This document shows positions 1 to 42,824 of a stretch of DNA of 42,998 nt, piece by piece. Location of the stretch: positions 1-42,998 of the IMG/VR virus record IMGVR_UViG_3300008450_000091, one strand, 5' to 3'. The position numbers and the translations under genes were made by a program. The notes beneath the pieces are model-generated. The model saw only the letters and a list, made by a program, of their open reading frames with translations, ran no database searches and was not told where the DNA came from. Each line of letters starts with the position of its first letter. Position 1 is the stretch's first letter. Source of the stretch: a virus.

Positions 1-306
1 CGTGTTAACGCCATCGACGGTGTTACGCTCGCCCTTGTCGAACGCGGGTGTGGGCAACACGTAGGACTGCAACGCTTTGTAACCGGAAGCGTCGTCTTCG
101 AGCTGCGTATCCTTGTTCAGATTGCATTCGTACCAGCGGCCAAGATCGAAGCCGCGAGCATCGACGCATACGCCAGTCTCAGCAGCGTACATGATGATGT
201 AAGCGAGGGTCTGAACGCCGCTGGATGACTGCGCTTCGCCTTTTGTGATGGCGTCGAAGGCAGAGAGCTTGAGCGTGTCGAGGTTAACGCCAGTGTTAGA
301 AGTCAT
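1..306 (-). CDS. Hypothetical protein, 3' end cut by window edge
   Basis: The frame is open from an ATG at 306 to the first base, giving 102 residues that begin MTSNTGVNLDTLKLSAF and run off the left edge. A good ribosome site (GGAG, 8 bases before the ATG) fixes the start. Codons are rich in G/C-ending forms, unlike most neighbours but like the SSB-like gene at 33278-33691 and the capsid gene, which suggests strong expression. I do not recognise the family, and no catalytic motif, signal peptide or membrane segment is visible. It lies downstream of the small gene at 398-580, probably in the same leftward transcript. Joining the window ends in a circle would extend the frame 44 codons through a promoter-like region, so the true C-terminus is not known. 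Confidence 0.75.
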   Translation of the reverse strand, partial: MTSNTGVNLDTLKLSAFDAITKGEAQSSSGVQTLAYIIMYAAETGVCVDARGFDLGRWYECNLNKDTQLEDDASGYKALQSYVLPTPAFDKGERNTVDGVNT

Positions 307-580: not shown

Positions 581-605
581 GTCACCCACCTCCTATCTAG
601 GTATT

Positions 606-649
606 AACATAACATGAAAGCATGTCATGTGTCTTCGTGTTAGCGCGTT
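606..649 (-). promoter_or_regulatory. Candidate early leftward promoter (class with AACGCG box)
   Basis: Read leftward: AACGCG (644-649), 8 bases, AAGACA (630-635), 18 bases, then TATGTT (606-611) as -10. The predicted start near 599 is about 20 bases before the ATG at 580. The same AACGCG-N8-AAGACA arrangement occurs at 39308-39327 and 42907-42926, which makes chance unlikely. This copy has the weakest -10 of the three. Confidence 0.55.
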
Positions 650-666
650 GTGTTGCGCTAATCACG
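636..666. other. Dyad overlapping early promoter
   Basis: TTAGCGC (640-646) and GCGCTAA (655-661) make a 7-bp stem with an 8-base loop, and flanking CGTG/CACG extends it with one bulge. It covers the AACGCG box of the promoter at 606-649, so it may be an operator. It shares TTGTGTTGCGC (648-658) with the hairpin at 370-389. Confidence 0.4.
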
Positions 667-712
667 TCTACATAACAGCACATAACACAGCGTAATGTCA
701 TTGCGTTGTTTG

Positions 713-1366
713 TGCATGTTTTGTAATTACATATCGTGCGAGCGGACGATACGGCAATTATATTGCGCAACATGATGCAACTTATGCGTAAGCTACACAA
801 CTATGCATGCATTGTTTCCACCAAGCTGTTCTAGTTATGTACACAACATGTTCATTGCATGTTCGATTACACATAAAACATGTATCTATCTGTATCGCGT
901 TTAAATGGGCGCTGAATGCACGCAACGCAAATTGCATGTGTAGGTACATGACATGCTGCTAACACGCATGAGCGAGCATTTTAGTTTTCACTTAAATACA
1001 CCATCACACATGTTACGATGCATGTGGCATGTAATGTGTATTACGCTATATAGGTACTATCTACACAGATATACCGCACTCATACTATATCACATACTAC
1101 TGTGTTCAATCAGTTGCACTCTCATGTAATTGCATCTATGCCTAAGAATATGCAGGTGCATGTACATGATGGTGATGTAGCTGAACACTTGGTGTCGGCG
1201 CGCTCGCAGCAACAACGCAGCATTGTCATACGAGTGCGGGGCGAAGCGACATGTCTATGTGTTATTGCATCGCAGTTGCATGTTCATACGCAGCAGATGC
1301 ATGCACAAATACGTAACTGCAATTACATGCCATGTTTTTACAACACGATGTATGACACTTGCATGC
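713..1366. repeat. Dispersed TGCATGT/TGCATGC word cluster
   Basis: TGCATGT occurs at 713, 856, 933, 1019, 1157 and 1277, and TGCATGC at 804, 1298 and 1360. Near-forms are AGCATGT at 619 and GGCATGT at 1026. Nine copies in about 650 bases is many times the chance expectation for a 7-base word. Spacing is irregular (roughly 60 to 140 bases), so this is not a tandem array. It could be a set of protein-binding sites for origin or regulatory use. Confidence 0.6.
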
Positions 1367-1438
1367 GCATTGCAGTTGATATGCACTCGCGTGTGTAGAT
1401 TTAACCCCCCGTATCCCCCGGTTGATTTCCCAAAAGGG

Positions 1439-1460
1439 GGTATTATAGATATGTGGCCGC
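1439..1460 (-). promoter_or_regulatory. Candidate leftward promoter, GGCC-type element
   Basis: Read leftward this 22-base stretch has GCGGCCAC, then CATATC, then a perfect TATAAT (1442-1447) and ACC. A near-identical element lies at 33729-33750 just upstream of the SSB-like gene, differing at only three positions. No TTGACA-like -35 is evident in either, so the GGCC block may be an activator or special recognition site. The nearest leftward gene starts 860 bases away at 580, which implies a long leader or a non-coding RNA. Confidence 0.5.
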
Positions 1461-1593
1461 GTGTAGTTACAACTACAACACAGAAAAATATCACTGTTAC
1501 AACATCGACATCATTCGTGTTCACCTTAACTTACTTACATATATTACATACAACATATATACAGGCTTTAGCGACATGTCTTTGTGCTGTTAC

Positions 1594-1745
1594 TACGTTG
1601 TATATGTAGTTGCAATATATAATCGCAGTTGTTGTATATGCAGTTAACATAAATGCAACTGCTATATATGTAATTACATGTTATACAAGTTACATCAACT
1701 GCAATTACGCTGCTGCAAATACGTTGTATATGTAGTGTAGTTGCA
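1594..1745. repeat. GTTGTATATG-type repeats
   Basis: TACGTTGTATATGTAGTTGCA-like copies lie at 1594-1614, 1631-1649 (GTTGTATATGCAGTTAACA) and 1720-1745 (with an inserted GTGTA-like step). An inverted relative lies around 1654-1675. A further TATATGTAGT is found near 33790, upstream of the SSB-like gene. Possible iterons or binding sites; the surrounding DNA is A/T-rich. Confidence 0.45.
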
Positions 1746-1984
1746 GTGTTAGTGCATGACAACAACACTGCCATCGTCAACATTAGCAGTGATGGAAAGG
1801 GCGTTCGCAAGCTCACGCCCCCGTATAAGCACTCCGTAACACGCAATTGCAGCACACTAATCATACATTGCACACACTGCTGCATCACTGTGTTTGGTGG
1901 AAAATATGTCCAATGTTCCTCTGATGTTCTATATATAATTGACTAGTTATATACGTATCATGATATAGTTGTAACGATTGTATC

Positions 1985-2041
1985 TTGACACGTTGTCGTG
2001 ACACATGCTACACGTCAGTACAATGGGTGGGCGGTTGGTGG
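1985..2041 (+). promoter_or_regulatory. Weak upstream promoter-like sequence and G-rich tract
   Basis: A perfect TTGACA lies at 1985-1990, but the hexamer 17 bases on (CTACAC) is a poor -10. A G-rich stretch at 2025-2041 has five G-runs of two or three and could form a two-layer quadruplex. Both sit ahead of the late operon; function is not established. Confidence 0.25.
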
Positions 2042-2124
2042 TCGTGAGGATCGCCAGAGAGTACAGCTAAAAACAGCACTGCAACGACACATGCAGTACA
2101 CTAACAGCACAATGCACCATTAGG

Positions 2125-2155
2125 CACCACTTCCACCAATTCACCACTTCCACCA
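2125..2155. repeat. Two direct copies of CACCACTTCCACCA
   Basis: Exact 14-base copies at 2125-2138 and 2142-2155, a 17-base period, end 16 bases before the candidate late -35 at 2171. That location is typical for an activator site, so the pair may be where a late regulator binds. Confidence 0.5.
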
Positions 2156-2170
2156 CACCGCGTTCCCTCA

Positions 2171-2199
2171 TTGACGAACGCATCGATCTCACGTACAAC
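2171..2199 (+). promoter_or_regulatory. Candidate late rightward promoter
   Basis: TTGACG (2171-2176), a 17-base spacer, then TACAAC (2194-2199). The predicted start near 2206 gives a short leader to the ATG at 2229. It is the only site with acceptable -35, spacing and -10 immediately ahead of the late block. Confidence 0.5.
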
Positions 2200-2228
2200 A
2201 GATACACTGTATATAAGGAGTCATCACA

Positions 2229-2648
2229 ATGGCCGTTGCATCATTCACTATGGGTTCTGGTACATGGTCGTTGTTCTGGGGGACGACTCCTGGTGCATAC
2301 TCCATGCTCGGTGTTGAGTCACCTGTTGAACGTGGTATCTCTCGTGTGTTTGCACGACAGAACGAACGTGTTGCGAAGCGCATCATCTACACGCTGCTTG
2401 GTGCGTCTGTCGGCGGGACCGCTACCGAGACATTTGCACAGATCTCTGCACCGACTGGTTTGACACAGTCTGCTGCACTCGGTGGGCTGCGCACTGTTGA
2501 TACAGTTACTGCTGTCAACCGTGCTACTACTGCTGCTGATCTGACATACATGCAGTCGATGATCACGCGTATGATCAACACGCCAACAATTGCTAACTAC
2601 GCTACTGATGCATCTGGCAATGGCGGTGGCGGCAAGGCTGGTCGGTAA
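2229..2648 (+). CDS. Hypothetical late protein, probably virion-associated
   Basis: A 139-residue protein that opens the late operon. AAGGAG 8 bases before the ATG gives a strong start. It has a hydrophobic, Gly/Ala/Thr-rich middle (around residues 50-75), a short helical segment near residue 100, and ends in a Gly-rich, basic tail. There is no recognisable family. The position ahead of the terminase genes, and a TAATG overlap with the next gene, suggest a structural or head-assembly accessory role, but that is inferred from context only. Confidence 0.7.
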   Translation: MAVASFTMGSGTWSLFWGTTPGAYSMLGVESPVERGISRVFARQNERVAKRIIYTLLGASVGGTATETFAQISAPTGLTQSAALGGLRTVDTVTAVNRATTAADLTYMQSMITRMINTPTIANYATDASGNGGGGKAGR

Positions 2649-37569: not shown

Positions 37570-37644
37570 TGGTGCCGATGCAGTGAATTGAACACTGGTC
37601 TGACGCTTACAAGGCGACTGCATTAGCCACTATGCTACATCGGC
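37570..37644 (-). tRNA. tRNA-Thr (UGU)
   Basis: The 7-bp acceptor stem GCCGATG/CATCGGC, a 4-bp D stem, anticodon loop CTTGTAA (anticodon TGT, codon ACA), a T arm CAGTG-TTCAATT-CACTG and an encoded CCA are all visible. The anticodon stem has one T-T mismatch. Thr ACA is very frequent in the phage genes, so the tRNA probably supports their translation. Confidence 0.93.
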
Positions 37645-37656
37645 ATACGAATTAGA

Positions 37657-37739
37657 TGGTGAGTGGCACAGGACTCGAACCTGTACGCTTGCGCAGCGAA
37701 TTTTAAGTTCGCCATGTCTACCTATTCCATCAGCCACTC
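37657..37739 (-). tRNA. tRNA-Leu (UAA)
   Basis: Class II tRNA with acceptor stem GAGTGGC/GCCACTC, anticodon loop CTTAAAA (anticodon TAA, codon UUA), a variable arm (TGCGCAAGCG) and a T arm ACAGG-TTCGAGT-CCTGT. CCA is encoded. It lies 12 bases from the tRNA-Thr gene, so both are likely cut from one transcript. Confidence 0.95.
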
Positions 37740-42442: not shown

Positions 42443-42673
42443 TTACTTCTCCTGCTCCAGATGTTGTAACACTGCATGAGCAACACGGTGCCATCCCTTC
42501 ATGCCTACATCAGCATGATTGTTCACCCACTCAAGCATTGTAGGTGTTGGATTAGGCACATTATTCCACGCACATACGCACACCATAGCAAGCGCATGAT
42601 CATCGCTGCACACTTTAGGCGGATCTAATTGATACGCAGCAGCACGCAGCCAATTAGCTATTGTACTGCGCAT
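42443..42673 (-). CDS. Small hypothetical protein
   Basis: A 76-residue protein, MRSTIANWLRAAAYQLDPPK..., helical with two Cys (CVCAW). AAGGAG 9 bases before the ATG at 42673 fixes the start; the longer frame to 42805 overlaps the preceding gene entirely. No function recognised. Confidence 0.68.
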   Translation of the reverse strand: MRSTIANWLRAAAYQLDPPKVCSDDHALAMVCVCAWNNVPNPTPTMLEWVNNHADVGMKGWHRVAHAVLQHLEQEK

Positions 42674-42824
42674 CGTAACGCACTCCTTCAGCACGCATGA
42701 ACGTTCGCACGAACGCTTCATCAAGTTCATCTTCACGATACTCATGATACAGCGCGTCGATCTCGATCTCAGCACATGGATCTGTGCATAGGGTTTCGAT
42801 GTCACATGTGTTTGGTGACGACAT
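42654..42824 (-). CDS. Small acidic protein, first gene after early promoter
   Basis: A 56-residue acidic protein, MSSPNTCDIETLCTDPCAEI..., with AAGGAG 8 bases before the ATG at 42824. It is the first leftward gene after the promoter at 42884-42926, so it is probably expressed very early. The composition (Asp/Glu-rich) would suit a host-enzyme binder, but this is not shown by the sequence. Confidence 0.65.
   Translation of the reverse strand: MSSPNTCDIETLCTDPCAEIEIDALYHEYREDELDEAFVRTFMRAEGVRYDAQYNS

Follow-up and report, generated by a model that had tools for sequence, protein, structure and literature searches.

A TGCATG-rich divergent region of an uncultured tailed phage as the probable outcrop of a genome-wide sequence habit

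The virus contig IMGVR_UViG_3300008450_000091, which comes from an uncultured tailed phage, was analysed over its full length of 42,998 bases (the window). Its leftward block encodes a DNA polymerase, a helicase, a Sak4-like annealing protein, MazG and HNH proteins, and others; its rightward block encodes the terminase, the portal, the major head protein and others. The 1.63 kb that separate the two blocks (Table 1) have no coding signal on either strand. All candidate open reading frames within them receive negative codon scores, as compared to +0.13 to +0.39 for the true genes of the window, which rules out a hidden gene and agrees with the sequence-only reading that this is the main non-coding region and that no gene is needed to explain it. 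(A small unconfirmed reading frame at 42443-42805 scores +0.03.) The only known RNAs are two tRNAs, both outside the region; these are genes for Thr-TGT and Leu-TAA in the leftward block (37570-37739, - strand). Among the scanned proteins no repressor or integrase gene was recognised, nor was an initiator gene. Against 50,697 phage records, neither the first 25 kb of the window nor the non-coding region itself gives a match at the DNA level, the same collection holds no isolate nearer than ~26% in the capsid protein, and a scan with the portal protein gave nothing useful.

Table 1. Features of the divergent region and its flanks (window coordinates)
Feature	Positions	Strand	Remarks
Leftward block, upstream end	1-303	-	Gene cut by the window end; codon score 0.24; no family match
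Non-coding divergent intergenic region	597-2228		Between leftward (replication/early) and rightward (virion/late) blocks
Left arm	597-1400		CATG/ACATG-rich; purine-pyrimidine alternation at 0.71 of steps
TGCATGY cluster	713-1366	+	Sites at 713, 804, 856, 933, 1019, 1157, 1277, 1298, 1360
Oriented C-run element	1405-1445	+	CCCCCCgtatCCCCCggttgatttCCCAAAAGGGGGTATTATAG; from pattern matches in relatives and alignment
AT-rich stretch of right arm	1470-1749		31-34% GC; GTTGTATATG at 1597, 1631, 1723
Probable late promoter	2171-2199	+	TTGACG-N17-TACAAC; 58 bp before first rightward gene; weak match
First rightward gene	2229-2648	+	139 aa; C-terminus SGNGGGGK; family-conserved; anchor for comparing loci

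All nine of the TGCATGY words that had been reported between 713 and 1366 are present on the + strand. The - strand of this stretch contains two, which are the same palindromes, TGCATGCA, at 804-811 and 1298-1305, and the remaining 42.3 kb of the window contain eight on the + strand and six on the - strand. TGCATG occurs at 13.7 per kb in 597-1400 versus 0.76 per kb beyond 2228, and CATG at 31 versus 5.6 per kb. When density is followed along the window, no other 654-bp stretch comes near the 11 TGCATG of 713-1366 (the next best has 5) or its 22 CATG (the next best has 12). In the left arm, all seven of the non-palindromic TGCATG words have the same orientation, and CATG is preceded by a purine in 23 of 25 cases and followed by a pyrimidine in 20 of 25. 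The spacing of the TGCATG sites is irregular (21-138 bp), and no helical phasing is seen among the sites of the cluster.

The sequence-only reading had also held that chance would give well under one copy. This is correct for base composition alone, which predicts 0.15 TGCATGY, but it is not correct once neighbouring letters are taken into account: the 11 observed TGCATG compare with 4.6 in shuffles that keep dinucleotides (20 of 2000 reach the observed count) and with 7.6 in shuffles that keep trinucleotides (107 of 1000; p ~0.1). For CATG the 22 observed compare with 11 (0 of 2000) and 17.3 (28 of 1000), respectively, and for ACATG, also 22, with 13.8 in trinucleotide shuffles (6 of 1000). 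When corrected for the choice of word and window, a 6-mer count of 11 is reached in 3 of 400 whole-region and 17 of 400 half-region shuffles and a 5-mer count of 22, that of ACATG, in 0-1 of 400; among 4-mers, CATG ranks first in the left arm (6 of 600 after correction). A moderate excess of CATG/ACATG remains after the shuffles (p 0.006-0.03). Within the region the steps CA/TG (1.66 times expectation), GC (1.52), AC/GT (1.37) and AT (1.24) are in excess, and CC/GG (0.52), GA/TC (0.59) and AG/CT (0.66) are depleted. (It should be noted that the count from a whole-genome shuffle, 25 observed and 47 expected, misleads as to the cluster, since the genes and the region differ in make-up.)

The same letter pairs are preferred in the genes. 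Purines and pyrimidines alternate at 71% of neighbouring bases in 597-1400 versus 56.5% beyond 2228, and at the codon junctions of the window's genes alternation reaches 0.635, compared to 0.537 after synonymous-codon shuffling (z 26). In particular, such shuffles show that the genes over-use CATG (168 versus 118 expected, z 7.1), TGCATG (25 versus 17.8, z 2.0), TGCA (357 versus 219, z 16.5) and likewise ACATG. Codon junctions avoid TT (0.38), GG (0.45) and CC (0.47) and favour GT, TG, CA and GC. Since the same pressure acts on genes under synonymous shuffling, the non-coding region displays a habit of the whole genome, there free of coding constraint. Avoidance of dipyrimidines, as targets of UV, was rejected as the cause of the alternation: CT at codon junctions of the genes is not avoided (1.16), and only the homodinucleotides are strongly so. 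The alternation may instead reflect a host signature, a polymerase bias or selection. A search of the literature on purine-pyrimidine alternation or on TGCATG origins found nothing useful. GATC is also over-used in the genes (277 versus 185 under synonymous shuffling, z 9.3), yet it occurs only twice in the 1.6-kb non-coding region.

Relative loci were collected by means of the terminase, the major head protein and the first rightward gene, with the borders of their regions set by a simple codon score. An equivalent divergent non-coding region precedes the homologue of the first rightward gene in about 60 loci. The habit is seen in the synonymous codon choice of the window and of L098, L101, L107, L043, L036 and L115 (z 16-27); junction alternation is about as high as in the window in the first five of these relatives and absent or reversed in others such as L020 and L141. 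Pooled over 59 regions, the window included, CATG matches its dinucleotide expectation (368 observed versus 379), and with the window left out TGCATG is mildly over-represented (103 versus 79), shuffle tests over related sequences not being independent of one another. The top words differ from phage to phage and are often palindromic or alternating (TATACA, GTATAC, AGCTA), and word orientation is inconsistent among the relatives. In aligned pairs of relatives CATG is conserved at 0.535, below the 0.560 of 4-mers as a whole and the 0.574 of alternating ones, so that conservation above background was not found there; for the region of the window itself no relative close enough to align was found. 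What does recur is the position of the CATG-rich part. Of 24 non-redundant relatives, 19 have CATG denser to the left of the C-run element than to its right (p 0.0004), and the bias also holds relative to dinucleotide expectation (1.19 versus 0.75, p 0.013). Because CATG lies mostly to the left even after this correction, the left arm is a reproducible compositional domain.

The C-run element forms the right boundary of this arm and has the form CCCCC-n-CCCCCG-n(4-6)-TTCCCAAAA-n-GGGGG; in the nearer relatives TATNATAG often comes next. Of the non-redundant regions from 52 relatives, 46 match a loose pattern for it on the + strand, with 68 such matches and 6 on the - strand, compared to 6.1 expected from shuffles, and the density of the pattern inside these regions is ~27 times that outside; the pattern was devised after the same sequences had been viewed, making these counts descriptive, and the strong part of the evidence is the strand asymmetry together with the low shuffle count. 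Besides the copy in the window, instances lie at L176:60-110, L169:575-615, L141:1096-1125 and in many others, and in less alternating branches two copies are often found 63-66 bp apart; relatives with such a pair include L040, L047, L050 and L205. The element has no Rfam match. A DNA terminus at this place gains no support, as the contig ends of the relatives do not gather there. As judged by sequence comparison, the truly conserved part of the region is this element, which adjoins the cluster, together with the probable late promoter.

The right arm is TATA-rich and carries this probable promoter. In L061, L043, L055, L033, L041 and L036 the homologous gene has a TTGACA-type box 60-71 bp ahead of it, and TTGACA-16..18-TANNNT occurs 24 times across the regions versus 1.5 expected. 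By eye, a leftward promoter resembling TTGCAT-N16/17-TATACT seems to be common to L055:1117-1230, L061:4010-4140, L043:1070-1180 and L033:285-410; a hairpin and T-run come after it, perhaps marking a short leftward leader RNA. A terminator-like hairpin with a T-run is present at 2066-2099 of the window (- strand; fold z -2.7).

Taken together, these results suggest that the cluster is probably the most extreme outcrop of the genome-wide habit, situated in the only long stretch that is free of coding constraint. The habit comprises purine-pyrimidine alternation, avoidance of AA, TT, CC and GG, and preference for CA, TG, GC, AC and GT. The stretch itself is the divergent control region between leftward replication and rightward virion genes in a family of uncultured tailed phages, leading from an alternating, CATG-rich left arm through the C-run element to a TATA-rich right arm with the late promoter, and it is probably driven by host sigma-70-type promoters that fire both ways. 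That the TGCATG words are mainly compositional, rather than a dedicated binding array, is argued by the following: most of the excess disappears when di- or trinucleotides are kept in the shuffles; the genes prefer the same words under synonymous shuffling; among the relatives pooled CATG matches expectation, CATG sites are not specially kept and other alternating words dominate; and the cluster shows no phasing. Against this stand the residual ACATG/CATG excess, the left-arm bias of CATG in the relatives and the uniform orientation of the seven non-palindromic TGCATG. A control region is borne out by its conservation in more than 50 relatives, with divergent blocks and a conserved late promoter; the array of initiator sites or the origin that had been proposed is not. 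Divergent early/late control regions are known from tailed phages, as in the lambda immunity region and around the divergent promoters of small lytic siphoviruses. The present region resembles them in being non-coding, in lying between opposed transcription blocks and in having a promoter before the late block; unlike them, it is much longer (1.6 kb), encloses neither a repressor gene nor a recognisable operator set, and has a C-run element that Rfam does not match.

An alternative is a degenerate operator array, in which the left arm would contain numerous weak RCATGY half-sites that turn over fast and are bound by a phage-coded regulator or a nucleoid-type protein, serving to silence leftward and rightward transcription or to set their order. 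We consider this unlikely. The reproducible left-arm domain keeps the idea alive at low probability, as do the leftover CATG/ACATG excess, the purine and pyrimidine that flank most CATG, and TGCATG in the relatives' left arms (69 versus 46.5). However, the sites show no phasing, and among the relatives no extra conservation or consistent orientation, other words are more enriched in the relatives' left arms, AACATG is not enriched in the relatives (15 versus 15.4), and no repressor or integrase gene was recognised. The stoperators of mycobacteriophage L5 are longer sites, distributed genome-wide and aligned with transcription; the window is like that system in that a single phage genome contains numerous short sites resembling one another, and unlike it in that they are shorter and confined to one region. 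It is rather improbable that the C-run element and the CATG-rich arm to its left jointly form a phage master locus of a new type (a packaging start, an origin or a transcription switch), read by a family-private protein, with an array that persists in position and density although its individual sites turn over.

A replication origin of the iteron or DnaA type, in which an initiator would bind the words, is decidedly doubtful. The cluster lies upstream of the late block, and like iteron-type phage and plasmid origins the window has many copies of a short word beside AT-rich DNA, here a stretch with short repeats that might conceivably be an unwinding element; TTATCCACA boxes also occur in the corresponding region of L061, L043 and L041. 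Unlike iterons, though, the words lack regular spacing and constant orientation, and their density is mostly compositional; there are no tandem repeats and no family of regularly spaced direct repeats of ~17-22 bp, and no initiator gene was recognised. There is no exact DnaA box in 590-2228, and TTATNCACA is not enriched across the relatives' regions (5 versus 4.0). GC skew, which had been proposed as a check for an origin, follows gene direction and switches near 26.5 kb, where the blocks meet. A folded leader or single-strand structure formed by the palindromic words is extremely improbable: folded as single-stranded DNA, the left half does better than its 20 shuffled versions (z -2.85), but the last 600 bases of the left arm do not (z -0.03), the relatives' mean (z -1.2) is close to that of the right arms (-0.9), and the one hairpin of the left half that was folded individually does not outdo its shuffles.

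If the cluster is mainly compositional, a genome-wide letter-pair habit can mimic an array of binding sites where coding constraint is absent, and synonymous-codon shuffles combined with relatives offer a way to separate such a habit from a true array. The C-run element is strongly conserved, oriented and unexplained in a large phage family that has no isolate in the 50,697-record collection. One relative, the 44.5-kb contig L232 (58% in the major head protein), was binned with the assembly of an uncultured bacterium, which may help to trace the host.
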